This document shows, piece after piece, positions 2,973-63,036 of a stretch of 64,000 bases of DNA. Within the stretch, counting starts at the first letter, position 1, and each line of letters opens with the position of its first letter. This DNA is from a virus, in IMG/VR virus record IMGVR_UViG_3300034068_000566, positions 31,290-95,289 of that record; one strand, 5' to 3'. The notes beneath the pieces were generated by a model that saw nothing but the letters and a program-made list of their open reading frames with translations, was not told where the DNA came from and ran no database searches. The position numbers were made by a program, and so were the translations under genes.

Positions 2973-3959
2973 ATGGCATCAGGTAAAAAAATAGGCAAGA
3001 AGTCTCAAGCGTCAAATGACTTCTTAGAGCCAATGGCTCCTACTGGTGTAACAGCAACAAATGTTGGAACTGGAAGAGCCTTTAATAATGGAGCAGCTAC
3101 AGTTACATTTTCTTTGCCTGCACTATCTCCTGCTGCTTCATCATTTACTGTAACCTCATCACCTGGCGGATATACTGGCACTGGAGCATCTTCTCCAATT
3201 ACAGTAGCTGGACTTCAATCTGCCACAGCCTATACATTTACCGCAACAGCTACTAATGCTGCAGGAACATCTGTAGCCTCTTCTGCTTCAGCTTCTATTA
3301 CCGCAACAACAGTTCCAGCAACTATGTCTGCTCCAACCCCAACTGCTGGAGTTAATCAAAACTCAATTGCTTTTTCAGCACCAGCAACTGGTGGATCTAC
3401 AATTACAGGATTTACCGTAACAGGCTCTGATGGTACATCTGGAACTGGAGCATCTTCTCCAATTGTTATTGCAGACACTGGTGGAACTTCTCAGACATAT
3501 ACAGTTAGGGCAACTAATGCTAACGGTACTGGTTCAGCTTCATCTGCATCTGGATCTATTACCACTACCCCGCCATTTTTCCCACCATTCTTCCCACCTT
3601 TCTTCCCGTTCTTCCCACCATTCTTCCCTCCGTTCTTCCCTCCGTTCTTCCCACCATTCTTCCCATTCTTCCCGTTCTTCCCACCATTCTTCCCTCCGTT
3701 CTTCCCACCTTTCTTCCCACCATTCTTCCCATTCTTCCCACCATTCTTCCCACCTTTCTTCCCTCCATTCTTCCCACCGTTCTTCCCATTCTTCCCATTC
3801 TTCCCATTCTTCCCACCATTCTTCCCACCTTTCTTCCCACCTTCATTCCCATTCTTCCCTCCATTCTTCACAGCACCTTCTTGCCACACTTGCAATGGCT
3901 CTGATGCCTACTGGGGCTACTATGGCTGTGGTTACCCAGGAGAAGTTGTTTGCAACTAA
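2973..3959 (+). CDS. Fibronectin-III protein with a 100-residue Pro/Phe repeat and Cys-rich tail
   Basis: This 328-residue protein has three parts. Residues about 20-110 and 115-198 form two fibronectin type III-like domains (Thr/Ser/Gly-rich, with SPITVAGLQSATAYTFTATA and TYTVRATNANG). Residues 200-299 are almost entirely Pro and Phe, alternating PPFF and PFF units. Residues 300-328 are a short aromatic and Cys-containing tail (PSCHTCNGSDAYWGYYGCGY, then a last VCN) with four cysteines. The fibronectin domains are typical of actinobacterial surface and phage tail proteins. The Pro/Phe tract is unusual; I do not recognise the family. The gene follows the fibre and precedes seven prolyl-hydroxylase-like oxygenases, so the prolines may be hydroxylated (inference). 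The ribosome site is TAGGAG. Confidence 0.8.
   Translation: MASGKKIGKKSQASNDFLEPMAPTGVTATNVGTGRAFNNGAATVTFSLPALSPAASSFTVTSSPGGYTGTGASSPITVAGLQSATAYTFTATATNAAGTSVASSASASITATTVPATMSAPTPTAGVNQNSIAFSAPATGGSTITGFTVTGSDGTSGTGASSPIVIADTGGTSQTYTVRATNANGTGSASSASGSITTTPPFFPPFFPPFFPFFPPFFPPFFPPFFPPFFPFFPFFPPFFPPFFPPFFPPFFPFFPPFFPPFFPPFFPPFFPFFPFFPFFPPFFPPFFPPSFPFFPPFFTAPSCHTCNGSDAYWGYYGCGYPGEVVCN
3570..3869 (+). repeat. 300-bp low-complexity PPFF/PFF repeat
   Basis: Nearly perfect 9- and 12-bp units (TTC TTC CCA, with CCA/CCT/CCG variants) encode residues 200-299. Phe is almost always TTC and proline third bases vary, which points to selection on the protein sequence. Period-3 C/T bias makes the opposite strand open too, but that strand encodes only a GGKNGG shadow. 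Confidence 0.9.
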
Positions 3960-3976
3960 GCAGATATCAATGATTA

Positions 3977-3985
3977 TGATATACT
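3977..3985 (+). promoter_or_regulatory. Extended -10 promoter upstream of the gene at 4008
   Basis: TG-A-TATACT lies 22 bases before the ATG at 4008, followed by a good ribosome site (AAAAGGAG, 3995-4002). The expected transcription start would be close to 3992. Confidence 0.5.
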
Positions 3986-4007
3986 TGTATAAAGAAAAGG
4001 AGAACTA

Positions 4008-4454
4008 ATGATTAAAGATATTGATATTCAACATAGTTTTAGTAGAGATAAGTTAGCAGGAGCACCATTAGTATTTGTTATTGATGGGGAGTGTCTTTAT
4101 AATTTTAATGCAACACTTCCTGGCATTGACCTATTTACAAAAAATAAAGGCATTACAGATATATCTGCTGACTACCCAGAGCACGATGGGGCTACACTTC
4201 AAATTGTTAAAGAAAATGATGAAATTGAAGTCTATCAAACTAACGAATACTTTGGTTCAGTTTTACTAAGCAATCCAACAGTTCTTGATTTAAATGATTA
4301 TCCTTATGGACATCATGTTATGTCTCCAGATGCCTCATTTGATGGAGAAAAGTTTATTATTAAAAATAAAACGGTTGCTGAACATGTACGATTAACGGAA
4401 TGGCATATTCACAATCCTAAAAATCCAAATTATGTACCCCATCCAAACGTTTAA
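4008..4454 (+). CDS. Hypothetical protein, 148 residues
   Basis: I do not recognise this family. The protein is acidic and soluble, with no signal peptide or membrane helix. It alternates beta-like stretches (APLVFVIDGECLYNF, HDGATLQIVKENDEIEVYQ) and ends in a His/Pro/Asn-rich tail (EWHIHNPKNPNYVPHPNV). It has its own extended -10 promoter and strong ribosome site, and stands between the Pro/Phe repeat protein and the small zinc protein. Position suggests either a structural accessory protein or a member of the modification cluster. Confidence that it is a real gene is high; its role is unknown. Confidence 0.7.
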   Translation: MIKDIDIQHSFSRDKLAGAPLVFVIDGECLYNFNATLPGIDLFTKNKGITDISADYPEHDGATLQIVKENDEIEVYQTNEYFGSVLLSNPTVLDLNDYPYGHHVMSPDASFDGEKFIIKNKTVAEHVRLTEWHIHNPKNPNYVPHPNV

Positions 4455-4490
4455 TTTTTTTATTATATAATTACAACAAAGGAGTTTGTT

Positions 4491-4724
4491 TTGTCAGAAA
4501 AAAGCGCATGGGAAAAATATAAAGAAAAAAATGGGGTAACTCCACTAGATATGCTTAATCCACATACAAAGCGTATACCACATGAATCTGCTCAAAAAAG
4601 ATTTGATATTTGTAAGGAGTGTCCAGAATTAATAAAACTTACTTCTCAGTGTAAAAAATGTGGTTGTTTCATGAAAGTTAAGACTACTCTTGAGATTGCT
4701 AAATGCCCACTAAATAAGTGGTAA
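4491..4724 (+). CDS. Small six-cysteine zinc-binding protein (DUF6171-like)
   Basis: This 77-residue protein uses a TTG start, chosen because a clear AAAGGAG site lies 6 bases upstream and no ATG is available before the cysteine region. Cysteines fall at about 41, 44, 54, 57, 59 and 72 (CKEC...CKKCGC...CPLNKW), a zinc-ribbon layout closing with the CPLxKW end typical of a small phage/bacterial family I associate with DUF6171. No DNA-binding helix is evident. In cyanophages and actinophages such proteins often stand next to 2-oxoglutarate oxygenase genes, as here. The function is unknown, possibly a metal-binding adaptor. Confidence 0.7.
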   Translation: MSEKSAWEKYKEKNGVTPLDMLNPHTKRIPHESAQKRFDICKECPELIKLTSQCKKCGCFMKVKTTLEIAKCPLNKW

Positions 4725-4746
4725 CACTCGCTATATATTGCTTTAA

Positions 4747-4767
4747 ATAGCACTTTTATGCTATAAT
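4747..4767 (+). promoter_or_regulatory. Extended -10 promoter overlapped by a 6-bp inverted repeat
   Basis: TG-C-TATAAT (4759-4767) is preceded by a TTGCTT-like -35 at 4738-4743 (18-base spacing). An exact inverted repeat, ATAGCA/TGCTAT (4747-4752 and 4759-4764), overlaps the -10 box and could be an operator. The leader to the ATG at 4798 is about 23 bases and has a GATAGGAA site. This is the likely main promoter of the oxygenase block. Confidence 0.55.
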
Positions 4768-4797
4768 AAAACTATACCATTAAAAGATAGGAATCAC

Positions 4798-5517
4798 ATG
4801 CAAGCATATGATGAAAACGATAATCACTGGTTTACTAAAGATAGATCAGAAACAGCCTCAACAAGAATTTCCCGATTGATGCCTCAAAGTAATATCCCGA
4901 TTAGCAATCCAGGATTAGGTTTAAATATTTATCATAATGTTTTTTCAAAAGATGATTCAGATAGATATATCAATACTCTTGAGCACAATCTTTCAGGGGA
5001 TAATAAGTATAAGTGGTCTGAAGCACAGGTAACAAACTCTACTGTTCCAATCAAAAAAGCAAGAGATGCTGTAGACTTTAAATATAAGCAAGAAAATCTT
5101 GGTCCAAGAGATGAACATAATGCTGATCTGATTGATTTGCATGAAGAGATATATCAAAAACTAAAATTGTGCATAGATGATTATGCACACTACTGGGGAA
5201 TAAATGTTACATATTATGAAGCATTTAACTTTGTAAAGTATGAAGGTGAAGGAACTCACTTTAATATACATGCTGATCATGGTCCAGCTTATAATTGTAC
5301 TGTTTCTGCAGTAATTTATATTAATGATGATTACGAAGGTGGAGAAATTAAGTTTCCAAGATTAGATAATTTTGTTCATACCCCAAAGGTTGGAGATATA
5401 GCAATCTTTCCTTCAAACTATATATATGAGCATGCTTCTTTGCCAATGAAAACAGGAACAAAATATTGTGTTGTCATTATGACAGACATTAATCTTTTAG
5501 GTCACACAGGAAATTAA
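4798..5517 (+). CDS. 2-oxoglutarate/Fe(II) oxygenase, prolyl 4-hydroxylase type (1 of 7)
   Basis: This is a predicted non-haem iron dioxygenase that couples 2-oxoglutarate decarboxylation to substrate hydroxylation. It is 239 residues long, the usual size of the catalytic domain alone. The jelly-roll core carries the facial triad H158-x-D160 and H212, with K222 ten residues further on as the likely 2-oxoglutarate anchor. YINDDYEGGEIKFP, typical of P4H-type enzymes, lies between them, and a KVGD..IFPS turn precedes the distal His. It is closely similar to the next gene, with the same YxEAFNxxKYE lead-in and FPSNxxY stretch, so the pair arose by duplication. The substrate is unknown; the adjacent Pro/Phe repeat protein is a candidate. 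Confidence 0.88.
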   Translation: MQAYDENDNHWFTKDRSETASTRISRLMPQSNIPISNPGLGLNIYHNVFSKDDSDRYINTLEHNLSGDNKYKWSEAQVTNSTVPIKKARDAVDFKYKQENLGPRDEHNADLIDLHEEIYQKLKLCIDDYAHYWGINVTYYEAFNFVKYEGEGTHFNIHADHGPAYNCTVSAVIYINDDYEGGEIKFPRLDNFVHTPKVGDIAIFPSNYIYEHASLPMKTGTKYCVVIMTDINLLGHTGN

Positions 5518-5530
5518 CATAGGAGAAAAT

Positions 5531-6202
5531 ATGAATACAGAAAATACAACATCAGCACCTTGGAGCAGCTATGAAGAGATTGCTCCAGGAATTTTTGTTT
5601 ACCACGACGTTCTGCCAACAGAATTAAACATTATTGATAGGCTGGAAGAGGTTTTGAATAATGACAGACCAAACTATAATTGGCAACCAGCCTATGTTGG
5701 TTATCAACAAAGAATGCCAGAGTATAGAGATTGCGTTGATTTTAAATTTAAGAAAACAGACATTGAAAGAGATGTATCTCCAGACTCCTTAAAACTTCAG
5801 GGCATTTGGCAAGACTGTTATGATAGACAAAAGTTAGCAGTAGAAGATTACTGCAGACGCTTTAATATTAATAACCTAAGATACTGGGAAGCTTTTAATT
5901 ACATTAAGTATGAGCCTGGTCAACACTTTATGGAACATCATGATCATGGATTTTCATATAACTGTACATTGTCTCTAGTTGCTTATATTAATGATAATTT
6001 TGAAGGCGGAGAATTATTCTTTAGACTTCAAGGAATTACGTATATTCCAAAAGCTGGGGATGTTGTATTGTTCCCATCTAACTTTATGTATCCACATCAA
6101 GCTAAGGTTGTTCATTCTGGGACAAAGTATTCTTTAGTAACAATGCTTGACTATAGCGATAAGTATCACACTCCAGAGATGTATCAAGAGACTGGATCAT
6201 AA
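5531..6202 (+). CDS. 2-oxoglutarate/Fe(II) oxygenase, prolyl 4-hydroxylase type (2 of 7)
   Basis: This 223-residue protein has the full jelly-roll signature: H136-x-D138, distal H189 and K199 as the 2-oxoglutarate-binding base. The sequence around the first metal site is His-rich (EHHDHG), so either H136 or a neighbour could bind iron, but the spacing to D138 favours H136. AYINDNFEGGELFF and PKAGDVVLFPSNF match the upstream enzyme nearly position for position, so these are tandem paralogues. A TAGGAG ribosome site sits just before the ATG, and the stop overlaps the next start (TAATG). The phage fold is intact; the substrate is unknown. Confidence 0.88.
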   Translation: MNTENTTSAPWSSYEEIAPGIFVYHDVLPTELNIIDRLEEVLNNDRPNYNWQPAYVGYQQRMPEYRDCVDFKFKKTDIERDVSPDSLKLQGIWQDCYDRQKLAVEDYCRRFNINNLRYWEAFNYIKYEPGQHFMEHHDHGFSYNCTLSLVAYINDNFEGGELFFRLQGITYIPKAGDVVLFPSNFMYPHQAKVVHSGTKYSLVTMLDYSDKYHTPEMYQETGS

Positions 6203-6915
6203 TGTCAATTATCACTGCTTATAGAAAAACACCAATGGCATTGAATATAGAGCCAATGTCTATAAAAAGAGATTGGATGGATGAAACTCCACAGGGTCAT
6301 GCCTATAGATGTCATCCAGTCACATCTGCCAATGTTATTGGCTGGAGTATATCTTCACCAGTAGACATAAAGTTCATCTGGAATGGTGTTAATGATACAA
6401 GCGGAGATAATGTTACTATACTTGAAGGAAAAGAGTATGTTTATACTGGAAGAGGACAGTCAACAGTTAGTTTTAATACTGGATTTATTTTAAGAACAGA
6501 TGAAAAAACTAGCGTATTGACAATAACTCCACAAAACTATTTTAATGAAGATGTTGAGGTTATGTCCTCTCTCATATCTACTTCTTTTTTAAATACAGAT
6601 TTTCCCTTAGCAATTAAATGCAAGGTAGCAAATAAAGAAATTACTATTAAGGCAGGTTCACCCATAGCAACCATAATTCCTATCTCTTTAACTTCTTTAA
6701 AAGATGAGTCTGTAGAGATAGTCAACTTTGTACACACACAAGAATATTCTGATGCTTTAAACTCATATGGTAAAGCAGCTCAAGAAGTAAACCAGAGTGG
6801 AGAGTGGACTGACTGGTATAGAAATGCTGTAAATGAAAAAGGCGAGTCTATTGGATCACACGAAGTTAAAAATTTAAAATTAAACGTTATTGATAATACA
6901 GGAGGCAAACAGTGA
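6202..6915 (+). CDS. DUF6065-like protein of unknown function, first of a divergent pair
   Basis: This 237-residue protein has no catalytic motif I know. N-terminal IKRDWMDETPQGHAYRC is followed by AN-x-x-GWSISSPVDIKFIWNG, a layout I associate with the DUF6065 family, although I cannot confirm that here. The second half (SVLTITPQNYFNEDVEVMSS...FLNTDFPLAIKC...AGSPIATIIPI) aligns in order with the next gene (SVLYVAPFNRYDLPIMTVSG...NLPGSFPFFVQ...AGTPYAQLLPF), so the two are distant paralogues. It is translationally coupled on both sides inside the oxygenase block, which suggests a shared process. No metal triad is present, so it is not an eighth oxygenase. Confidence 0.65.
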   Translation: MSIITAYRKTPMALNIEPMSIKRDWMDETPQGHAYRCHPVTSANVIGWSISSPVDIKFIWNGVNDTSGDNVTILEGKEYVYTGRGQSTVSFNTGFILRTDEKTSVLTITPQNYFNEDVEVMSSLISTSFLNTDFPLAIKCKVANKEITIKAGSPIATIIPISLTSLKDESVEIVNFVHTQEYSDALNSYGKAAQEVNQSGEWTDWYRNAVNEKGESIGSHEVKNLKLNVIDNTGGKQ

Positions 6916-7637
6916 AGATCATTGAGTTTATAACTAATAGGCCTTGGCTAAATAAAGATAGTAAATCAAAGCCAATACCAATTTCAAGATCAATGCCACA
7001 GTGGTATAAAGAAGCTGATAGGTTTGCTAAAAAACCAGATGGAGAATATTGGATAGGACCAGACAAAGGAAAGATCCCTACATGGAAAGCCTGTCCTGCA
7101 ATTCTTGATATTTTAACAACTGGGTATAGCCTTGTAACCCCCTGTGATATAGAATTTTTCCTTGATGGCGCAGGGCAAATTGATGTTAAAACTGAAGATC
7201 CAATGTATAAAGATTTTGCTACAAGAAGAACTCCCATGCCACAATTTCGTCATCCAGAAGGATATTATAATTATCACTTTGCATGGATGCCAGATTGGGC
7301 AGTAAAGGTTCCAGATGGCTATAGCGTTTTATATGTTGCTCCATTTAATAGATACGATCTTCCAATTATGACAGTTTCTGGAATTATTGATAATGACAAA
7401 GTTAACTTGCCTGGATCTTTTCCATTTTTTGTACAAAAAGGTTGGACTGGAGTTCTTCCAGCAGGAACTCCTTATGCTCAGTTGCTTCCATTTTTGAGGG
7501 AAGATTGGAAATCCGAAATAACTGTTCCAACTGCTTCTGAAATGATGAATCATAATATAGAAAATAGTAAAAAATATCGTGTCCCAGATGGCGGAGTTTA
7601 TCAAAAAGAAGTCTGGACTAAGAGATTCTACGAATAG
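6912..7637 (+). CDS. Protein of unknown function, second of the DUF6065-like pair
   Basis: This 241-residue protein starts at GTG, overlapping the previous stop by four bases; a GGAGG site lies just upstream. It begins with SRSMPQWYKEADRF and TWKACPAILDILTTGYSLVTPCDIEFFLDG, then a beta-rich half (SVLYVAPFNRYDLPIMTVSGIID, then GSFPFFVQ, then LPAGTPYAQLLPF). The order of motifs mirrors the preceding gene, so both probably share a double-stranded beta-helix-like fold. No iron-binding H-x-D is visible. Similar genes accompany oxygenases in some cyanophages, from general recollection. The C-terminal KKYRVPDGGVYQKEVWTKRFYE is basic and aromatic. Its role is unknown. Confidence 0.65.
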   Translation: MKIIEFITNRPWLNKDSKSKPIPISRSMPQWYKEADRFAKKPDGEYWIGPDKGKIPTWKACPAILDILTTGYSLVTPCDIEFFLDGAGQIDVKTEDPMYKDFATRRTPMPQFRHPEGYYNYHFAWMPDWAVKVPDGYSVLYVAPFNRYDLPIMTVSGIIDNDKVNLPGSFPFFVQKGWTGVLPAGTPYAQLLPFLREDWKSEITVPTASEMMNHNIENSKKYRVPDGGVYQKEVWTKRFYE

Positions 7638-7641
7638 GAAA

Positions 7642-7650
7642 TGGTATAAT
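7642..7650 (+). promoter_or_regulatory. Extended -10 promoter driving a leaderless start at 7656
   Basis: TG-G-TATAAT ends five bases before the ATG at 7656. No Shine-Dalgarno sequence lies between them. With a usual 6-7 base discriminator the transcript would begin at or next to the A of the start codon, as in actinobacterial leaderless mRNAs. Confidence 0.6.
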
Positions 7651-7655
7651 AAAAC

Positions 7656-8336
7656 ATGAAACAAAATAACGAGTCGTACACAGTAGTTAAAAGAACACCA
7701 TCTATAACTCCATCTGGTTGGTTTGGAGATAGCAAAGACATGATTGTCGAGCTAGAAAATTTTATGACCCCAGAAGAGATTGAGTTTTTAGAAAAAGCTG
7801 CTAAGTCTTTGACAATTTGGGATGTAACTGAAAGCCATATGAATGAAAATGGGACTGTTACATATGACTCAAACTATTGGAAAGACAGAGTTGCTACTAG
7901 CCCAACATTAAATAAAAATGATCCAACCATCGCACCAGTAATTGCTGGATTATTTCAAAGATTAAAACCAATTGTTGAAGAATTTTATAAGGTAGAAGTC
8001 GTTCCAACTGGAACAACTATTGTTAAATGGCTTCCTGGACAATTTCAAAAACCTCATGCGGATAAAGAGTTACATGAAGGTCCTGATGCTGGAACTCCTA
8101 ATGACTTTCCAAATTATGACCTATCTAGTCTATTTTATTTAAATGATGACTATGAGGGTGGAGAATTATACTTTCCTATACAAGGTGTACAGTTTAAGCC
8201 TAAAAAAGGAGCTGCATACTTCTTCCCAGGAGATAAAAACTATATTCATGGAGTTACTGAAATCAAAAGTGGCCTAAGATTTACATGTCCATTTTTTTGG
8301 GAAATTACTAAGCATACAGGAGATAGGCAACCATAA
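7656..8336 (+). CDS. 2-oxoglutarate/Fe(II) oxygenase, prolyl 4-hydroxylase type (3 of 7)
   Basis: This 226-residue enzyme has metal ligands H134-x-D136 and H198, and R208 ten residues later as the expected 2-oxoglutarate carboxylate anchor. KWLPGQFQKPHADKE and FYLNDDYEGGELYFP are classic P4H motifs, and PKKGAAYFFPG precedes the distal His in NYIHGV. About 20 residues separate the HAD from the core strand (GPDAGTPNDFPNYD), a small insertion compared with the first two enzymes. It seems to start a new, leaderless transcript within the block. Its stop overlaps the next ATG. Activity is likely; the substrate is unknown. Confidence 0.88.
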   Translation: MKQNNESYTVVKRTPSITPSGWFGDSKDMIVELENFMTPEEIEFLEKAAKSLTIWDVTESHMNENGTVTYDSNYWKDRVATSPTLNKNDPTIAPVIAGLFQRLKPIVEEFYKVEVVPTGTTIVKWLPGQFQKPHADKELHEGPDAGTPNDFPNYDLSSLFYLNDDYEGGELYFPIQGVQFKPKKGAAYFFPGDKNYIHGVTEIKSGLRFTCPFFWEITKHTGDRQP

Positions 8337-9223
8337 TGACATATCCTTGGCCAAACAATAATAAACTTGAGTCAATAGAAATATATCCAAATATTGTTGT
8401 GTACAAAAATCTTTTTAAAGATATTGAAAAATCTTATAAAATTTTAACAGATTCTTTATCAGAAACAGAAGATGGTTTGTTTAATCCTTGGACCACTTGG
8501 TCTGTTTTTGGGGAATACTTAAATCCAATAACTCCTCAATTTTCAATGAATGATAGATATGGAAATATGAAAGATGTAGAAACATCAACAGAAACGCAAG
8601 AAAATCATAAAAACTTTGTAATTGAAATGATGGACAATTTTTATTTAGCTACAGAAGACTATATCAAGAGCCATAATTTAGACGTAGATTTAGATGCAAT
8701 GTCTATAAATGATGATGGGAATCCTATTCCAACATGGAGATGGGCTGGTGGAACTATAGGTAAATATCATGTAAGTAATGAAGACAGTAGAGTTGGAATG
8801 AACTATCATTCAGACTATATAAGAGAGCAAGGTCATACCCCAGGTTATAAGTTTGTAATAACATCTACAATATATTTTAATGATAACTATGAGGGTGGAG
8901 AAATTGATTTTGCAATGGGAGACAAGCTTGTAAAGTATAAACCAGAAGCAGGAGATGTTTTAGTTTTTCCATCAGGGCACCCAGACTATCTGACAGAAGA
9001 AGGAAAACCATATTTACATGGAGTTATGCCATCATATAAAAATAATAAGTTTTTGTCAAGAATGTATTGGCAAAAATATCAAAAAGGAACTGATGATTGG
9101 TATGAAAAAGAAAAAGAGTTTGGAAAAGATGTTTGGGCGGAAATGCAAAAAGATTTAGACGAACAGTTTAGACTAAAGCACCCGCAAAGAGCTGTAATAG
9201 AAAATGGAGTAAGAATACAATGA
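8336..9223 (+). CDS. 2-oxoglutarate/Fe(II) oxygenase (4 of 7), longest member
   Basis: This is the longest of the group at 295 residues. The metal triad reads H158-x-D160 and H228, with K238 as the likely 2-oxoglutarate base ten residues on (R242 is an alternative). FNDNYEGGEIDF and PEAGDVLVFPSG are present. An insert between the FPSG turn and the distal His (HPDYLTEEGKPYLHGV) enlarges the active-site lid. After the core comes a charged C-terminal extension of about 45 residues rich in Lys and Glu (DDWYEKEKEFGKDVWAEMQK), absent from most neighbours and perhaps a binding helix. Start and stop overlap the adjacent genes. Confidence 0.85.
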   Translation: MTYPWPNNNKLESIEIYPNIVVYKNLFKDIEKSYKILTDSLSETEDGLFNPWTTWSVFGEYLNPITPQFSMNDRYGNMKDVETSTETQENHKNFVIEMMDNFYLATEDYIKSHNLDVDLDAMSINDDGNPIPTWRWAGGTIGKYHVSNEDSRVGMNYHSDYIREQGHTPGYKFVITSTIYFNDNYEGGEIDFAMGDKLVKYKPEAGDVLVFPSGHPDYLTEEGKPYLHGVMPSYKNNKFLSRMYWQKYQKGTDDWYEKEKEFGKDVWAEMQKDLDEQFRLKHPQRAVIENGVRIQ

Positions 9224-9978
9224 ACCTAGAGAATAAAGTTAGGCTAACAAAAGACATAGTTGTTTATAAAAATTTTATAAGCAAAGAGGATTGTCAAAAG
9301 ATGATTCAAGCATTAGATGCTCAGGCAGATAATGGTGCACTCTCTTGGATGCCTATTTCATTTTATGAATCATACTCTTCTGTCCTTCCACAAGACAATG
9401 ATCAAGAGTTGCTTGATGCTGAACTATCTCCAACTATTTTTTCAGACATTGAAAAAACAATGCCAGAGGCAATTGCTTCAGTTCATGACTTAGATCCAAA
9501 GACAATTTCTAAGATTGGATACCATACACAAAAGTGGGAGCCAGGAGCATACGCAAGAATTCACTCTGATAATACAGATGCTCAAGGAAATTCAGGAGCA
9601 TTTACAAGAAGTCGTTATGCAGGGTTCCTATATCTAAACGATGACTTTGAAGGGGGACTGCTTAAGTTTCCAAGTCATAACATAGAGATTAAACCAGAAG
9701 TTGGAATGCTTGCTGTTTTTGACGGGGGATTTAGCAACATGCACGAAGTCTCCCTAATAGAAAGTGGAGTAAGATATACCATTGGATCTTTTTGGGATGA
9801 CAGAGAAGAAGATGCTTACCCACAAGAATTAAGAGATGCCTGGGCTGCAGAAATGAAAGAGACTAGAGCAAAACAAGAAATTGAAAGAGCCGAATGGCAA
9901 GATCTTTTAAAAGAAGGATGGAAGTTGGATGCTGCTGGAAATAAATATAAGGTAGAAGATTTAGGGAATAATGTCTAA
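9220..9978 (+). CDS. 2-oxoglutarate/Fe(II) oxygenase (5 of 7)
   Basis: This 252-residue protein carries H115-x-D117 and H175 as metal ligands and R185 as the 2-oxoglutarate anchor. KWEPGAYARIHSDNTD and LYLNDDFEGGLLKFP are P4H-type signatures, with PEVGMLAVFDGG before the distal His. As in the preceding enzyme, a charged helical tail of about 60 residues follows the core (ELRDAWAAEMKETRAKQEIE), so these two genes probably share a recent ancestor or a common partner. The start overlaps the previous stop by four bases and the stop overlaps the next start by eight. The substrate is unknown. Confidence 0.85.
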   Translation: MNLENKVRLTKDIVVYKNFISKEDCQKMIQALDAQADNGALSWMPISFYESYSSVLPQDNDQELLDAELSPTIFSDIEKTMPEAIASVHDLDPKTISKIGYHTQKWEPGAYARIHSDNTDAQGNSGAFTRSRYAGFLYLNDDFEGGLLKFPSHNIEIKPEVGMLAVFDGGFSNMHEVSLIESGVRYTIGSFWDDREEDAYPQELRDAWAAEMKETRAKQEIERAEWQDLLKEGWKLDAAGNKYKVEDLGNNV

Positions 9979-10630
9979 TTTTCTAACAAGCATACTAAAA
10001 GAAAATAATTTTCAGGTTGAAGAAGTTACTGATGATATTGTTTTAGTTAAAGATTTTTTTTCTAAAGATGATCTAGATCAAGTTTTTAATATTATAGACT
10101 CAACTCCAAATGAAGAGTGGTTTATAGAATATCATGCTAACTTAAAAAACTTTTGTATGCAAAAATTTGGCAGAGATGATGTTGATAATTTAGTTGCAGA
10201 AGGTAAATTTGAAATAACTCAAAACTGGCAAGATAAAAATTTAAATATAGGACAACACCCATTTCAAAAAACCTTGTTCGATAGACTAAATAATTTAGTT
10301 CAAAATGTTGACAACACAATAGAGTTAAGTGGTTTTGCAACTATTCAAAGGATGCAAGAGGGTGTCGAGTTAAAAGCTCACACAGATCAAGATACAGATC
10401 CATCGATTAGGTACGCTGCCATTCTGTATTTAAATAATGATTATGTTGACGGAGAGTTGTTTTTTCCAAACAATGGCTTAGAGTTTAAGCCTGATCCTGG
10501 GTCAATGCTTATTTTTCCAGGCACAGCAGAATATAATCATGGAGTAAAGCATGTAGGTCCAGGACCAATTAGATATGTTTTGGTTGGATTTATTAAGGTT
10601 AAAAATTTTTATGATAACAATAAATACTAA
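9971..10630 (+). CDS. 2-oxoglutarate/Fe(II) oxygenase (6 of 7)
   Basis: This 219-residue protein has the triad H137-x-D139 and H190, plus R201 as the 2-oxoglutarate-binding arginine (one residue further than in the neighbours because of a PGPI insertion). LYLNNDYVDGELFFP replaces the usual EGGE by VDGE, a mild deviation outside the metal site. PDPGSMLIFPG precedes the distal His. The N-terminal 110 residues form an extra alpha/beta segment (DDIVLVKDFFSKDDLDQVFNII) also seen in weaker form in the previous gene. It is coupled to the upstream gene by an eight-base overlap. Confidence 0.85.
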   Translation: MSNFLTSILKENNFQVEEVTDDIVLVKDFFSKDDLDQVFNIIDSTPNEEWFIEYHANLKNFCMQKFGRDDVDNLVAEGKFEITQNWQDKNLNIGQHPFQKTLFDRLNNLVQNVDNTIELSGFATIQRMQEGVELKAHTDQDTDPSIRYAAILYLNNDYVDGELFFPNNGLEFKPDPGSMLIFPGTAEYNHGVKHVGPGPIRYVLVGFIKVKNFYDNNKY

Positions 10631-10641
10631 AGGAGAAATAA

Positions 10642-11373
10642 ATGAATAAAGAACTACTAGACCCAAAGGTATACTATTATACTGACGCAATTGAAAATTT
10701 TGACAAATTTAAACAAGTTTGGAAAGAGTTAGACACTCTTGAGCAATATGATGAGTTAGGGGTAAATGTTTGGAACCCTTGGACATCTTCTAACGATAAA
10801 ACTTTTATCTACGGAGAAACAAAAACTTTTGATGCTAATGCAATAAGCAATCTTAGTGGAGATGTAGCAGAAAAAAGTAAATATATTTATGATGCCGTTA
10901 TGACTACAATGTATAATGTTTGTAAAGACTATGCATCCTCTATGGGAGACTTTGATGAGCCAAGACTTTTTCCAACATTTAACATAAAAAAGTACAATAC
11001 TGGAATGGCTATGGGGGCGCACTTTGATCAACTCGATGGCGATAAGACATTGAGATATTCTTTGGTAATGTATTTAAACGATGACTGTGAAGGCGGAGAA
11101 ATTTCTTTTCAGTTAAAGGACTATGATGGTGGATGGACTAGCTCAGAAGGTTGGGTAAGTGGCGCACCAGCAGTAGAGTTAGACTATGATCTTGCAGTTG
11201 CAAACAAAGCTATTAGTTTTGGTGTAAAACCTAAAGAAAATAGCGTTGTAATATTTCCAGCATATGCTCCATATTTTCACACGGCACACACAGTTAAGTC
11301 TGGCGTAAAGTATATGATTCCTGGACATTGGATCCATAACAATATGGAGCTTAATCAAAGCCAGAGCATGTAA
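10642..11373 (+). CDS. 2-oxoglutarate/Fe(II) oxygenase (7 of 7)
   Basis: This is the last oxygenase of the block, 243 residues. It has H127-x-D129 and a distal histidine, most likely H213 because K223 lies ten residues later; H216 is an alternative. MYLNDDCEGGEISF is the P4H core motif. A 30-residue insertion (DYDGGWTSSEGWVSG...) follows that strand and would extend a loop over the active site. The AAAGGAG ribosome site is strong and the gene directly abuts the dehydrogenase that follows. N-terminal NVWNPWTSSND recalls oxygenase 4 (FNPWTTWS), suggesting these two form another subfamily. Confidence 0.85.
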   Translation: MNKELLDPKVYYYTDAIENFDKFKQVWKELDTLEQYDELGVNVWNPWTSSNDKTFIYGETKTFDANAISNLSGDVAEKSKYIYDAVMTTMYNVCKDYASSMGDFDEPRLFPTFNIKKYNTGMAMGAHFDQLDGDKTLRYSLVMYLNDDCEGGEISFQLKDYDGGWTSSEGWVSGAPAVELDYDLAVANKAISFGVKPKENSVVIFPAYAPYFHTAHTVKSGVKYMIPGHWIHNNMELNQSQSM

Positions 11374-12042
11374 TTGAAAACAGCAATTGTAACTGGAGCA
11401 AGTAAGGGTGTTGGATTAGCAACAGTTAAGCGCTTGTCTGAAAATGGGTATAAAGTAATTGCTGTTTCAAGAAACCTTTCAAAAGTCTCTGAACTAATAT
11501 CTGATAATGTTGAGGTATATAATCTAGACATTACAGACTCTAAAGCAATAGAAGTGTTCTTTGAAAAATACAAAGACATTACTTTAGACCTTTTAGTTAA
11601 TAATGCTGGAGGAGGGTCAGGCCCAACTCATATTATTAATGAGACTCCAGAAAACTTTAGAAAAGCTTATGATATAAATGTAACTGGCCCTATGTACCTA
11701 TCTCAACTATTTGCTCCATGTATGGAAAAGTCAGAGTCTCCAACAATTATCTTTATTACTTCTTTTGGAGGAAAGGTACCATATCGTGGTGGAGGAAACT
11801 ATACAAATGCGAAGAGAGGTGAACGTGGTCTTATTGATACAATGAGACTTGAGTTTCCTCAATTTGGGATTAAGATTACAGAAATCTGTCCAGCAACTAT
11901 TGATACCCAAGAACAAAAACGGGATCAAGCATTAACCGCAGAAGATTTAGCAGAAGCAATTTACTGGGTAGGATCATTACCAAGTCATGTTAATATAAAT
12001 GAAATTGAAATCTGTCATATTCACAGCAGCAAGTATGGTTAA
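11374..12042 (+). CDS. Short-chain dehydrogenase/reductase
   Basis: This 222-residue NAD(P)-dependent oxidoreductase has a Rossmann fold. The cofactor motif TGASKGVG spans 7-14, NNAG 76-79, and the catalytic Ser130, Tyr143 and Lys147 (YTNAK) are all in place, so it should be active. Basic residues after the second strand (VSRNLSK) favour NADP(H). The TTG start directly follows the previous stop (TAATTG); no other start is available upstream. As the last gene of the oxygenase block it may act on the same product or on a host metabolite. The protein is slightly short, missing part of the C-terminal substrate loop usual in 250-residue members. Confidence 0.85.
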   Translation: MKTAIVTGASKGVGLATVKRLSENGYKVIAVSRNLSKVSELISDNVEVYNLDITDSKAIEVFFEKYKDITLDLLVNNAGGGSGPTHIINETPENFRKAYDINVTGPMYLSQLFAPCMEKSESPTIIFITSFGGKVPYRGGGNYTNAKRGERGLIDTMRLEFPQFGIKITEICPATIDTQEQKRDQALTAEDLAEAIYWVGSLPSHVNINEIEICHIHSSKYG

Positions 12043-14221: not shown

Positions 14222-17200
14222 ATGACTAACCCATCTAACTTATATGCTGAAAAGATTTTTGCGGAACATCCATTGGCTTTGTGGGCACTGGATGATAAGG
14301 TTGACTATATATCTTTAATCACTGAGTCTCAAAGAAATCTATCAAACTGGACAATAACTAATGGGTCTTCAGAGTCATTCACCTTTGATTATCCAGTGTT
14401 TGATCAGCCCTTTCCAGAAAGTTATATTGGTTTATTTTCTGCCGATGTACCCTCTAACCCTATAGAGCAAATAGTTGCAATAAGCGATGACATCTTAAAC
14501 TTTAACGACTTCAGCTCTGAACTGTCAACATTTTCTGTAGGAGCTTGCTTATATTCTTTAAGTCCATATATTAATAGCGTTGAAATTGGATATGAGTATT
14601 ACGATACAACAACCTCTTCTACTGTACAACACTTAAAAAGTTTTGACATATCGTTAACAGATCAGTGGTTTTTTATTTCTGAAACCTTTGGTATTCTTCC
14701 AGAAAGCGCAACAGTTAGAATTGTTGTTAAAATAAACTATTTGTCTGGATCGTTATCTGCAGAAGACTACTTGTTTTTAATTAATGGAATTTCTTTGGGT
14801 CAATGGAGTGAAGAGTTTCAGTCGTATTCTTTAGGAATCAACCCTCAAACCTTGCCTGCTGGAATTTTTTCATCTACAACAAAAGGAATTAAAGCATATT
14901 CTTATGGATTAGAAGAAGAGTTTGGATACTACTTAACTGAGAATGAAACACTTTTATCTAAAAATTCAGGACTGCCAATTGTTTATGGATCTTCTAATGT
15001 TACGGCCTTATCGCCAAGTTCTAATGGTATGCCATCTTTAATAATTCCAGGCAAAGGCTTTTTAAATAAAATTGGTCAATACAAAGACTATACTTTTGAG
15101 ATGTGGTTAAAAGTAGCCGTAGACTCTACAGAACCTAAAAAAATATTTGGAAATCTTAGGGGAGACAACGGTCTATGGGTTGATGGTTCTTTCCTTATCC
15201 TTAAAATAGGATCAAGTCTTGGGTCTTATTTTGTTGGCGAGTGGGACAGGCCCATGCTAATCCACATAACTGTTTCAGAGAATAACTCTTCTTTATTGGT
15301 TAATGGAGAAGAAGTAATCTCTCTAACTTATCTAAGCACAGATCTAGAATTTCCAGAAATTTATTCCGACACCCTAAGTAATGACTGGCTTGGCTTTTGG
15401 TCTTATGACGACGTCTATCCTTTTCAAATTGATTGTGTTGCAATTTATCCTTACAGAGTTTCTTCTATTGTTGCAACAAGAAGGTTTGTATATGGACAAG
15501 GAGTTGAGTTTCCAGAAGGGATAAATCAGTCTTATAGCGGAACGTCTGTTTTTATTGACTATCCTTTTGCAGACTATACAAACAACTACTCTTATCCTAA
15601 TATGGCTAGTTGGAATCAAGGATCTGTTGATAACCTTACAACTAATAATGGAATTTTATCAACCCCAGAATACTTCCTGCCAGACATTGTTGTAAGTAAT
15701 AAGACTGATCAAGATTTTTATTCAGATAATGCGTCTAGTCAAAATGAATCTGACCTATTCTTTTCTTTATATCCTGGAGGTCTAGATTCTTGGGACTACT
15801 CAGAAGGATATCTTTTATTTAATAATTTAAGTTTTTTACAAGAAGAAATTAAATGTTTCTATGGAATATTTAAATCTAAGTCTCCAGCAATTAATGAAAT
15901 TCTTATTTACATTGACTCAGCAGACTCAAATGACTATTTTGAAATTTCTTTAAATGGCAGTGTAATTTCTTATAAGTTGAATTATAATGGAATCTTAGAA
16001 ACAGTATATCAATCGTATGGATATTCAACGGGAGAAACATTTGTTTCTGGAATTCATATAGACTCCTTTGTAAGTCATTTTGGTGGAAACGTAGCCTCAT
16101 TTTTTGGTAATCGTGGGAGTTTAAGACCTTATGTCGGTGGCAAAAAAGAACTAGAGAATACTTTTAAAGGAAATATCTATAATGTAGGATTCTCTAATAA
16201 TAAAAACTATCAGCAAATTAAAGATTTTTTTAACGACATTGGCGTTCCAGTAAACTATGAGAATGTTTTTAATTTATACGGTAGCCTTGTAGACTATGAT
16301 GCTGGAGAAACTTACTTTGGCAATCAGGCGTCTTATTGGCAGTTTTTATTAAACGGAGGGACTCCTTCAGGGTTTTCAACTTATATGCTTATTAACCATA
16401 CAGCAAGCTACACCCTGTCTCCAGTATTATACTTTGGCGAATATAGTTTAGATATTGATATTAATGGTTCCTGGAAAGACTATCTTCCACTTTCTTATTT
16501 TGCTCAATACGTAAAGAATGCAAAAGACGATTTTTATTACGATTTAGATTTTTTGCAATTTAATATTAACTACCCAGAACCTTCAAAGTTTGTTGAAGAT
16601 CAATCTTCTGGCACTTGGACATATCAAGAACTTAAAGAGCAATACGCAATTCCTGTACAAAGAACATATGAGTCACTAGATAATCAACTTTATACAGGGT
16701 ACAACGATTATTCAGATTTGCAAAACAAGTCAATAAAAAACTATAAGTATGACACCTCTACATCAATGGTAAAGACCCATATATCATTTGAGTACTTATC
16801 TTCTGGAGCCAATGCAATAGATGAATTTTTTACCTATGCTGAGCTAGCTCCTAAAGAAGGAGTTATTGAACCAGGGACCAATTGGATAAACACAAAGTAT
16901 GAAGTAGTTAATAATACAATCTTGTATCCTCCAAAAACTTCAGACATTTTAGATATTGCTGTAGTAACGCATGTTGACTTTACTGTTAAATCCTCTTTAA
17001 AGAAAAGGGTTAATATTAAAAGTTTACAACTTTGCTCTCAAGCCTTTAATGATGTTTCTCCAAATCCTATTGGTACAAGATTTGGAACTTCTATTTATCC
17101 ATACAAAAAGACAGGGATTTACTATGACTATAAAAGTCCAAACCCTTTTACCATATACAAAGGAAGCTCTCCATATTTATACACAACAAGGCATAGCGGT

Positions 17201-17935
17201 ATAGAGTTAAAAGGAACTTATGACCCAATAGTTAATCGTGGAGTATCAATTCCAATAAATCAAAACGCAGTAAGCTCGTTTAAGGTTATTGCAATTCAGG
17301 CAGCAATTAGATATACTCAAGACTTTTTCCCTTTTGCAGCAACAGAAATATTTGAGATTGAGTCACGGGATAAGGTAATTAAAATTTATATGGTCGCCAA
17401 TGATCCACAGGGTAGAAGAGCAAAACTCTATGCTGTTGATTCCTACAGTGGACAGATTTCAAATGATATTGGATTTTACTGGAATGGTAAGGTTGTTAAA
17501 GAGCCTATAATTACCACCAAGGATTGGGGCTTCTTAGGTCTTTCATTTATTAATGCTCTTAATTTTTCAAATATTGTGGGATCAATTAAAATAACTGGAC
17601 CAATTTTAACTAATACTATTTCTTATTATCAATCAACAAATTTACAAGAAAAGCAAAAGGTAGTAAATAGGCCATGGTTTAAAGTCAAGACAGATATATC
17701 TACTGAGCTTGACTGGAATTACTGGGATTCACCAAGCGTAACTTGGAATAATGTTTTGATTCTTGCCTCTAGCAGTTATTATGGGGTAGATCCATCAATT
17801 ATTTATAAGATTTACACAGGAACCAACAAGATCATTGTGGGAGACGGTCCAGATAAGATTTTAAAGTTTGGGTCTTACCAATATCTATTCTATCAAGATG
17901 TTTTATGGACAAGCAACACAGAGAATGCTATCTAA
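14222..17935 (+). CDS. Large LamG/concanavalin-like structural protein
   Basis: This 1,237-residue protein is predicted to be beta-rich, without a signal peptide. It opens with NLYAEKIFAEHPLALWALDD, the A-x-xLWALDE-like start of many minor tail proteins. A LamG/laminin-G-type jelly roll is visible at about 280-400 (YTFEMWLKV...KKIFGN...LLVNGEEV), and a weaker repeat of the same theme near 560-680. The C-terminal 400 residues are Tyr/Asn/Ser-rich with no motif I recognise. Such proteins bind carbohydrates and decorate phage tails or capsids. It lies apart from the main tail genes, between the reductase and the portal. A role in host-surface recognition or capsid decoration is inferred. Confidence 0.7.
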   Translation: MTNPSNLYAEKIFAEHPLALWALDDKVDYISLITESQRNLSNWTITNGSSESFTFDYPVFDQPFPESYIGLFSADVPSNPIEQIVAISDDILNFNDFSSELSTFSVGACLYSLSPYINSVEIGYEYYDTTTSSTVQHLKSFDISLTDQWFFISETFGILPESATVRIVVKINYLSGSLSAEDYLFLINGISLGQWSEEFQSYSLGINPQTLPAGIFSSTTKGIKAYSYGLEEEFGYYLTENETLLSKNSGLPIVYGSSNVTALSPSSNGMPSLIIPGKGFLNKIGQYKDYTFEMWLKVAVDSTEPKKIFGNLRGDNGLWVDGSFLILKIGSSLGSYFVGEWDRPMLIHITVSENNSSLLVNGEEVISLTYLSTDLEFPEIYSDTLSNDWLGFWSYDDVYPFQIDCVAIYPYRVSSIVATRRFVYGQGVEFPEGINQSYSGTSVFIDYPFADYTNNYSYPNMASWNQGSVDNLTTNNGILSTPEYFLPDIVVSNKTDQDFYSDNASSQNESDLFFSLYPGGLDSWDYSEGYLLFNNLSFLQEEIKCFYGIFKSKSPAINEILIYIDSADSNDYFEISLNGSVISYKLNYNGILETVYQSYGYSTGETFVSGIHIDSFVSHFGGNVASFFGNRGSLRPYVGGKKELENTFKGNIYNVGFSNNKNYQQIKDFFNDIGVPVNYENVFNLYGSLVDYDAGETYFGNQASYWQFLLNGGTPSGFSTYMLINHTASYTLSPVLYFGEYSLDIDINGSWKDYLPLSYFAQYVKNAKDDFYYDLDFLQFNINYPEPSKFVEDQSSGTWTYQELKEQYAIPVQRTYESLDNQLYTGYNDYSDLQNKSIKNYKYDTSTSMVKTHISFEYLSSGANAIDEFFTYAELAPKEGVIEPGTNWINTKYEVVNNTILYPPKTSDILDIAVVTHVDFTVKSSLKKRVNIKSLQLCSQAFNDVSPNPIGTRFGTSIYPYKKTGIYYDYKSPNPFTIYKGSSPYLYTTRHSGIELKGTYDPIVNRGVSIPINQNAVSSFKVIAIQAAIRYTQDFFPFAATEIFEIESRDKVIKIYMVANDPQGRRAKLYAVDSYSGQISNDIGFYWNGKVVKEPIITTKDWGFLGLSFINALNFSNIVGSIKITGPILTNTISYYQSTNLQEKQKVVNRPWFKVKTDISTELDWNYWDSPSVTWNNVLILASSSYYGVDPSIIYKIYTGTNKIIVGDGPDKILKFGSYQYLFYQDVLWTSNTENAI

Positions 17936-61656: not shown

Positions 61657-63036
61657 ATGAATTCATTTAAGAAAATCTCAATTGCTACCGCTGCAGCCCT
61701 AGCAATCGTTGGACTTTCTGTCGCACCTTCTTCGGCAGCACCATTAGCCGTTACGGTTGCAGCAGCAACTAACGCAACGACTTCAGCAGCACCAGCAACA
61801 GTAGCAGTTCCATCAAGTAATGTTATTACTTCTGGAAACACTATTGCTCTTGCAGCAACAGCAGATACAGGTACAAATGTTACCTTTACTGCTTCATCAA
61901 CTGTAAAGTTGGTATCAGCACTTAACACAACAGATGCACCAAAGACAATTGCATCAGGTGTTTCAACACTTACAATTGCTTCTGCTGGATCAGCAGTAAC
62001 AGCTTATGCTTATACAACTACAACAGCAGTTGGTTCTGTGACCATTACAAATGGCTCATACTCAACAATTGTTTACATCTCTGGTATTGCTGGAGCAGCA
62101 TATAACCTAGGACTATCAGTTCCTTCTGCAACAGCAGTTGGCACAGTTCCTACAATTGCTCTTACAACAACAGATGTATTTGGAAACTCAGTTTCAGATA
62201 CAGCAACAGTAACTTTAATTGGCTCAACATTTGCTGATGGTTCTGTTACTAAGTCACTAACTACAGCAACAGCAACAAACACTTCAACTGGAGCAGTTCT
62301 TGGAACTGTAACAGCAGCACTAGCAACAGGAGTTGCTGGAGAAGTTACTGTAGTTGCTACAGGTCTTTCAACAGTAACAGCCGTAACTGGTCTTGCTGCT
62401 CCAGTAAAGTCTGTAATCACTAAGTTCACAATTTCTGATCTTTCAGGAATCATTGCAGCACTTAAGTCAGATCTTGCAGTTGCTAACGCAACCAATGCAT
62501 CTCATGTTGCAGACAAGACATCACTTACAGCAGCACTAGCAGCATCTAACAAGGCAAGAGATGATTTCTCAACAGCCCTTGCAACTGCAAATACTCAGAT
62601 TGCTAAGGCAAGTGCAGATCTTGCAGCAGCTAAGAAGGCTCTTGATGATCTAAAGACATCTTCAGATAAGGCACTTGCTGACTTGAAGACATCTTCAGAC
62701 AAGGCTCTTGCAGATGTTCAGGCATCACATGCAAAGGCTCTAGCAGATGCAAAGACTGCTTCAGATAAGGCTCTAGCAGATGCAAAGACTGCTTCAGATA
62801 AGGCTCTAGCAGATGCGATGGCATCATCTAAGGTTGCTTCAGATAAGGCACTTGCAGATGCTAAAGCAACTTCTGATTTAGCTATTGCTTTTTCAAAGTC
62901 AGCAGCGGATGCAAGCGCAGCATCAGTCAAGGCAGCAAATGACCTTGCAGCAGCAAAGGCAAAGGCCGACTATAACAAGTTGGCTGCAAAGTGGAACAAG
63001 GCTAATCCAAAGGCTAAGGTTGCACTAAAGAAGTAA
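61657..63036 (+). CDS. Secreted Ala/Thr-rich protein with hendecad repeats (host surface-like)
   Basis: This 459-residue protein follows terminase by 12 bases, with an AAAGGAA site. The N-terminus is a Sec signal peptide: SFKKISIATAAALAIVGLSVAPSSAA, cleaved near residues 24-28. Residues 35-260 form Thr/Val/Ala-rich strands (VTFTASSTVKLVSALNTTD..., VTITNGSYSTIVYISG) like S-layer or cell-wall adhesin domains. Residues 285-430 are a long helix with 11-residue repeats around SSDKALADLKT, a hendecad coiled coil. The C-terminus is very basic (KWNKANPKAKVALKK). From general memory, proteins of this style are common in low-GC freshwater actinobacteria. A host-derived origin is inferred. A terminator follows. 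Confidence 0.75.
   Translation: MNSFKKISIATAAALAIVGLSVAPSSAAPLAVTVAAATNATTSAAPATVAVPSSNVITSGNTIALAATADTGTNVTFTASSTVKLVSALNTTDAPKTIASGVSTLTIASAGSAVTAYAYTTTTAVGSVTITNGSYSTIVYISGIAGAAYNLGLSVPSATAVGTVPTIALTTTDVFGNSVSDTATVTLIGSTFADGSVTKSLTTATATNTSTGAVLGTVTAALATGVAGEVTVVATGLSTVTAVTGLAAPVKSVITKFTISDLSGIIAALKSDLAVANATNASHVADKTSLTAALAASNKARDDFSTALATANTQIAKASADLAAAKKALDDLKTSSDKALADLKTSSDKALADVQASHAKALADAKTASDKALADAKTASDKALADAMASSKVASDKALADAKATSDLAIAFSKSAADASAASVKAANDLAAAKAKADYNKLAAKWNKANPKAKVALKK
62650..62880 (+). repeat. 33-bp/11-residue tandem repeats in the secreted protein
   Basis: Seven imperfect 11-residue units occur, two of which are identical over 33 bases (62738-62770 and 62771-62803). Such recent exact duplication suggests the repeat number changes easily. 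Confidence 0.85.

Follow-up and report, generated by a model that had tools for sequence, protein, structure and literature searches.

The stalk gene and the oxygenase operon

The stretch of DNA considered here (the window: 64,000 nucleotides, to which positions refer unless another record is named) comprises bases 31290-95289 of the 95,289-base IMG/VR record IMGVR_UViG_3300034068_000566, an uncultured aquatic phage. The subject is a block of plus-strand genes in which a protein with a long PPFF/PFF repeat, the stalk protein, is encoded ahead of an operon of seven 2-oxoglutarate (2OG)-Fe(II) oxygenases. The stalk gene (2973-3959; 328 amino acids (aa)) lies downstream of fibre genes, one of them bearing an Mtd_N domain. 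Its product consists of an FN3-type N-terminal region (aa 1-199, 2973-3569; Pfam PF00041, E 1.2e-5 at aa 40-106), a PPFF/PFF stalk of exactly 100 residues (aa 200-299, 3570-3869; 53 F, 46 P, 1 S) and a small Cys-rich C-terminal tip (29 aa with four cysteines, 3870-3956). The neighbouring fibre genes, the FN3 base and a tip that is exchanged among relatives (see below) are, at the level of the genes, the marks of a tail fibre or adhesin, and the protein is probably a tail-fibre-type adhesin built of base, stalk and tip. A first-pass annotation of this DNA had placed seven complete oxygenase genes beside a 100-residue PPFF/PFF run, which is exact; it had seen no other obvious role for the repeat protein, an account to which the FN3 region and the four-Cys tip are to be added.

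The repeat is real coding sequence in this frame, because the differences between its units are synonymous and fall at the third positions of proline codons (29 CCA, 10 CCT, 7 CCG). Of its 53 phenylalanine codons 52 are TTC, whereas eleven other genes use TTC for 58 of 426 (Fisher p 2e-37); the genome outside the repeat mostly uses TTT (14% TTC), and the repeats of relatives are also TTC-biased (91%), perhaps through avoidance of T runs or through repeat amplification. A test for the Gly-X-Y pattern of collagen-like proteins found no Gly in the repeat.

All seven oxygenases score above the curated cut-off of Pfam PF13640 (27 bits), at 33-47 bits: ox1 (4798-5517; 41.8 bits), ox2 (5531-6202; 47.5), ox3 (7656-8336; 36.9), ox4 (8336-9223; 34.7), ox5 (9220-9978; 33.2), ox6 (9971-10630; 41.6) and ox7 (10642-11373; 39.5). 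The run is interrupted between ox2 and ox3 by genes for a DUF6065 protein (6202-6915; PF19541, 112.8 bits) and a phrog_7084 protein (6912-7637; PHROG E 1.7e-33). The paralogues are well diverged (19-39% pairwise identity), and the HxD...H iron ligands are invariant in 7/7 (H134, D136, H198); a K or R at the 2OG-binding R208 position is found in all seven when the alignment is read by eye, and the HxD...H...[KR] pattern is retained in at least 98% of the homologues of each paralogue. Strong purifying selection acts on each of the seven, with dN/dS of 0.008-0.16 in comparison with the homologous locus L390.

An AlphaFold (AF2) model of ox3 (pLDDT 92) has as its top Foldseek match the collagen prolyl hydroxylase vCPH of the Chlorella virus PBCV-1 (E 3e-10), further matches being human P3H1, algal and B. 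anthracis prolyl 4-hydroxylases (P4H) and PHD2; the matches listed are mostly prolyl 3- or 4-hydroxylases; a few are different 2OG oxygenases or ones that have not been characterised. Comparison of ox3 with Protein Data Bank (PDB) sequences by phmmer gives weak matches, all to hydroxylases, six of the seven named prolyl. By fold, ox3 models as a prolyl hydroxylase. The DUF6065 model is of low confidence (pLDDT 67); all 50 of its 50 listed Foldseek matches are dUTPases or bifunctional dCTP deaminase/dUTPases, one of them below E 1e-3, and a dUTPase-like fold is put forward tentatively, as a lead only. No paper on DUF6065 was found in the open-access literature, and phrog_7084 has no match among PDB sequences.

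Co-occurrence and joint switching of stalk type and operon

Searches with the stalk protein yielded 79 loci, and searches with a divergent stalk and with the product of the next core gene, a 1,237-aa protein (14222-17935), about 150 more. The stalks of this phage family are of two kinds: PPFF/PFF stalks, which are Pro-dense repetitive domains (38-47% Pro across 72 of them), and F-rich, Pro-poor stalks (3-20% Pro), with repeats such as FTPYSF, FAPFGAFGAF and FSPFGVFGF. Intervals were counted after removal of identical proteins and where the stretch from the stalk gene to the class II ribonucleotide reductase (RNR) or the core gene was fully present (n=77; 38 PPFF, 39 other). Six to nine oxygenases together with DUF6065 lie downstream of the stalk in 38/38 PPFF intervals, with exactly seven oxygenases in 28; in the 39 others there are no oxygenases in 37 and one in two, so that the cluster is present in 0/39. 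When the requirement is relaxed to at least 7 kb of downstream sequence, the operon accompanies 57/57 PPFF stalks and 0/42 other stalks. Whole records tell the same story: 6-12 oxygenases where the stalk is PPFF (n=15) and 0-5 in non-PPFF records of the same family (n=26), of which 24 have no PPFFP motif in their DNA, the other two holding three copies and one copy. Conversely, each of the 30 DUF6065 loci whose upstream sequence reaches far enough has a PPFF stalk, L402 and L404 included. The survey of co-occurrence that the first-pass annotation had proposed is thus strongly positive, and the case that it had named as damaging to its idea, an oxygenase cluster kept where a Pro-rich protein is lacking, was looked for within the family and not found: no interval among the 77 has the operon without a Pro-rich stalk, or the reverse. 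One contig, L122 (phage G005), has seven oxygenases within a clade that otherwise has none; it would have added an independent test, but stops short of the stalk gene.

Sequenced bacterial genomes hold no PPFF stalk except in L465, a short phage-like contig in a metagenome-assembled genome. This deep relative (DUF6065 40% identical) has the order FN3-PFF stalk, OX, OX, DUF6065, phrog_7084, OX, OX, where OX stands for an oxygenase gene.

Stalk type and operon also change together. The core-protein tree has seven changes of stalk type, of which starred branches force five, and the operon goes with every one of the seven; the two agree in 63/63 rows. The FN3 tree shows two changes of stalk type, and the operon is concordant in both. 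The cleanest swap, a recent one, separates the close phages G011 and G012, which share 81-91% DNA identity in the fibre genes upstream and 90% in the genes downstream. Between these flanks a block that starts with the stalk gene and ends shortly before the RNR gene has been exchanged: 8.5 kb with a PPFF stalk and the operon in one, 2.4 kb with a FAPFGAFGAF stalk and a divergent phrog_7084 gene in the other.

What the operon follows is the repeat. The FN3 region of the stalk protein is 60-94% identical to that of both PPFF and non-PPFF relatives, and Hint-like tips occur on both stalk kinds (2-4 changes); FN3 and tip are therefore ruled out as correlates, which leaves the repeat itself. Both kinds of stalk are F-rich (55% aromatic in PPFF, 36% in the others), whereas Pro density differs consistently between them. 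Collagen-like fibres are ruled out as the reason for the operon: they are equally common with it (12/16) and without it (about 20/26).

PPFF/PPYF repeats are also found on other scaffolds, including a PASTA-like protein and a 725-aa protein. Of 26 repeat records, most of them with such other scaffolds, a true match to DUF6065 is present in 17, nearly all of which have at least five oxygenases. In L276, L306, L334 and L377 the repeat gene lies beside an ox3-like gene, with ox2-like and DUF6065 genes where the sequence reaches; the large oxygenases of this set are not orthologues of ox4-ox7. Proteins that look by eye like relatives of glutathione peroxidase or thioredoxin are encoded inside the oxygenase clusters at L334:10838-11452 and at L377:9026-9646 and 10652-11251. 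The impression, also by eye, that L377 comes from a contractile-tail phage was dropped: PHROGs gave no match, and no morphotype is claimed. The genome under study itself encodes a second PPFF/PPYF protein outside the window (473 aa; G000:C1:25301-26722, equivalent to L081:5301-6722), with a PASTA-like N-terminus, APFFPPYFAP repeats and a 4-Cys tail.

The ends of the 72 complete PPFF stalk proteins are varied: 39 are Cys-rich, 14 Hint-like (at least 120 residues, with weak Hint_2/intein matches), 7 carry another short stretch and 12 nothing. The number of cysteines is even in 39/39 Cys-rich tips, as expected if every cysteine is paired; a Pfam search of these tips found no family. Some of them, for example those of L003 and L020, have cystine-knot-like spacing. 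Tips are exchanged frequently: in 198 of 237 pairs whose FN3 parts are at least 85% identical, the tips are less than 40% identical. The length of the repeat varies between otherwise identical proteins (113 vs 76; 91 vs 106), differences for which short-read assembly could account in part. L018 has two tandem PPFF stalk genes (8217-9182 and 9995-10972) with different tips. In one clade of Hint-like tips (L044, L047, L202, L206, L207 and L212) all six stalks are accompanied by 9-10 oxygenases, L044 and L047 having three extra ones directly 3' of the stalk gene; because the core-protein backgrounds of the six differ, a tip type may bring its own enzymes.

Among the remaining genes of the block, DUF6065 is tied tightly to PPFF phages (38/38 PPFF intervals, 0/39 others). 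The phrog_7084 gene is present in 38/38 PPFF and in 21/39 other intervals. A short-chain dehydrogenase/reductase (SDR) gene (11374-12042; PF00106, E 1.4e-40), an accessory of the operon found in 30/38 PPFF and 0/39 other intervals, follows ox7 and is followed by the RNR gene. Between the stalk gene and ox1 lie a small protein of no assigned function (4008-4454; no Pfam or PHROG match; 1/38 PPFF intervals) and an optional DUF6171 protein (4491-4724; PF19668 above its cut-off; 8/38 PPFF and 2/39 other intervals). The former is usually absent from relatives, and in this genome a paralogue of it lies 3' of the gene for the second PPFF protein. Outside the window, on the other strand, this genome encodes an eighth 2OG oxygenase (G000:C1:18993-19583; L080). 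Within the window, 61657-63036 encodes a protein of 459 aa that looks secreted; judged by eye it has a signal peptide of actinobacterial type, and Pfam gave no match.

A probable stalk-maturation cassette and its alternatives

These observations are best accommodated if the block serves as a stalk-maturation cassette and hydroxylates the Pro-dense stalk of a virion adhesin, which we regard as probable. The seven oxygenases and the DUF6065 protein, perhaps with the SDR, would act on the stalk inside the infected cell, ahead of assembly or while it proceeds. The likeliest modification would be hydroxylation of the densely packed stalk prolines, with the paralogues reading different sites (either Pro of PPFF, or the single one of PFF) and performing 3- or 4-hydroxylation. 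A very hydrophobic chain would in this way be turned into a soluble, stiff, polyproline-like rod at whose end an exchangeable, disulfide-stabilised tip would meet the host; phages with Pro-poor, Gly/Ala/Ser-rich rods would manage the same job without the operon. The link between oxygenases and repeat that the first-pass annotation had proposed is strongly supported at the genetic level by co-occurrence, joint switching and usual recurrence on other scaffolds, and the prolyl-hydroxylase model of ox3 is in keeping with it; contigs with few or no enzymes count on the other side. The chemical side of that proposal, in which hydroxylated prolines would stiffen the tail or alter host binding, is inferred.

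Several points weigh against this interpretation. Nine of the 26 repeat records (G062, G065-G069, G076, G083 and G091) have 0-3 oxygenases and no DUF6065; several are short contigs, but one is an 88-kb record with a single PF13640 enzyme, so that PPFF does occur where the operon is missing or a different set of enzymes is present. Why one repeat should need seven enzymes is unexplained, and ox3 is the only one of them for which a fold model was made. A sign test on the five starred switches is not significant (p 0.0625), with p 0.016 for 7/7 on the best tree, and a long-branch warning attaches to the core-protein tree; as evidence, the count of independent switches is consequently good but modest. 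A collagen-like GXY protein encoded at G000:22374-23129 is an alternative possible substrate. Finally, the stalk gene adjoins the operon, so that the two could be transferred as one block without any enzyme-substrate relation.

Such hitch-hiking, the main alternative, would make stalk and operon neighbours in one host-adaptation cassette, with the oxygenases acting on a host metabolite, surface glycan or nucleic acid needed in the same hosts. The genes do swap as a block, the operon also holds an SDR and a DUF6065 protein of unassigned role, and many cyanophages have 2OG oxygenases of unexplained role but no PPFF protein (PMC9602691). Tips recombine often within the stalk gene, however, and FN3 regions and tips are found on both stalk types, yet 0/77 intervals are decoupled, and the repeat lies beside oxygenases and DUF6065 on unrelated scaffolds too; co-transfer is weakened on both counts, and we consider it unlikely. 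Another proposal, that the enzymes tune the 2-oxoglutarate/nitrogen metabolism of the host, has been made for cyanophage 2OG oxygenases (PMC9602691). It is very improbable here: close relatives that differ in stalk gain or lose the whole operon, and a sink for 2OG has no need of seven diverged, separately selected paralogues. That the genes are chance neighbours, or the repeat a low-complexity-frame artefact, deserves next to no credence; although the repeat is open in several frames, its variation is synonymous in this one, a codon pattern on which the artefact was rejected, and hundreds of contigs keep a fixed synteny.

Two further alternatives keep the enzymes on the virion and change their target. 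With a stalk that is 55% aromatic and seven diverged paralogues that may differ in their targets, some or all of the enzymes could hydroxylate Phe or Tyr of the stalk, or the Cys-rich tip; moreover, a single oxygenase lies beside the non-PPFF genes of some relatives, so that Pro density is not the sole context. We judge this improbable, given that the non-PPFF stalks are F-rich as well and yet lack the operon, Pro density being what differs, that Cys-rich and Hint-like tips occur on both sides, and that ox3 matches prolyl hydroxylases both in fold and in sequence. The other is that the oxygenases modify other virion proteins instead of the PPFF stalk, above all the collagen-like fibre noted above, the closest fold match of ox3 being a collagen prolyl hydroxylase. 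The usual site of prolyl 4-hydroxylases is X-Pro-Gly. The even distribution of collagen-like proteins between phages with and without the operon makes this, too, quite improbable.

Relation to known systems and biological meaning

The enzymes are of a known kind. PBCV-1 vCPH (PDB 5c5t/5c5u) and other P4H share with ox3 the 2OG-Fe(II) double-stranded beta-helix and the HxD...H motif, and vCPH, the best structural match of ox3, is likewise encoded by a virus. Identity is, however, 17-19%, and vCPH is an enzyme of a eukaryotic virus, whereas here seven diverged paralogues share an operon next to a PPFF repeat lacking the Gly-X-Y pattern. Cyanophages offer a second parallel, with many diverged PF13640 genes per phage, some adjoining tail fibre genes; S-SCSM1 has 24 2OG-Fe(II) oxygenase genes (PMC9602691). 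Homologues of ox2 in cyanophages are only 25-36% identical, and no cyanophage is described as having an operon tied to one type of repeat. In the cultured phage S-SCSM1 (L469:3918-12940, MK867354.2) four 2OG oxygenases lie directly 5' of two tail fibre genes and three more 3', and the second fibre, SSCSM1_245, has an internal FRQPRNFRQPRAARQRRSF repeat; it may be more generally the case that oxygenases adjoin repeat fibres.

For the stalk protein there are two analogies. Plant hydroxyproline-rich proteins are matured by several prolyl hydroxylases. Extensins and hybrid proline-rich proteins resemble the stalk protein, as known here from its gene, in having a Pro-dense rod followed by a disulfide-rich domain (in the hybrid proline-rich proteins an 8-Cys domain; PMC4730328); there is no relation in sequence, and PPFF is half aromatic, which extensins are not. 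Collagen-like tail fibres, known for example in Nanopelagicales phages (PMC10202952), are like the stalk in being repetitive low-complexity proteins of a variable tail island, but are made of Gly-X-Y repeats and are equally frequent in relatives without the operon. A set of 50,697 phage records contains no close homologue of the stalk, the core protein, ox4 or DUF6065. Streptomyces phages of the BillNye group have a DNA polymerase 55% identical to the one encoded here, which makes an actinobacterial host likely. No paper joining phage, proline hydroxylation and tail fibre was found in the open-access literature, outside which most subscription journals lie; within the literature searched, an operon of about seven oxygenases locked to a Pro-Phe stalk is undescribed.

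Taken at its fullest, the interpretation is of a phage-encoded multi-enzyme maturation system in which 5-10 dedicated prolyl-hydroxylase paralogues and DUF6065 would make PPxF repeats into a poly-hydroxyproline/aromatic rod, a new virion structural material, carrying swappable host-recognition tips (fully disulfide-paired mini-domains or Hint-like domains), with stalk and enzymes exchanged as one cassette. This extended version is offered tentatively, as a serious possibility. Stalk type has been swapped repeatedly together with the entire operon, a natural experiment that names a substrate and makes the question testable, and that suggests a concrete, testable job to phage oxygenases of unexplained function. 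If the proposal is true, phages chemically mature an adhesin by means of a dedicated operon, and bacterial viruses have a counterpart of hydroxyproline-rich structural proteins; the PPxF rod might then serve as a material, and the exchangeable Cys-rich tips would be relevant to how these phages recognise their hosts.

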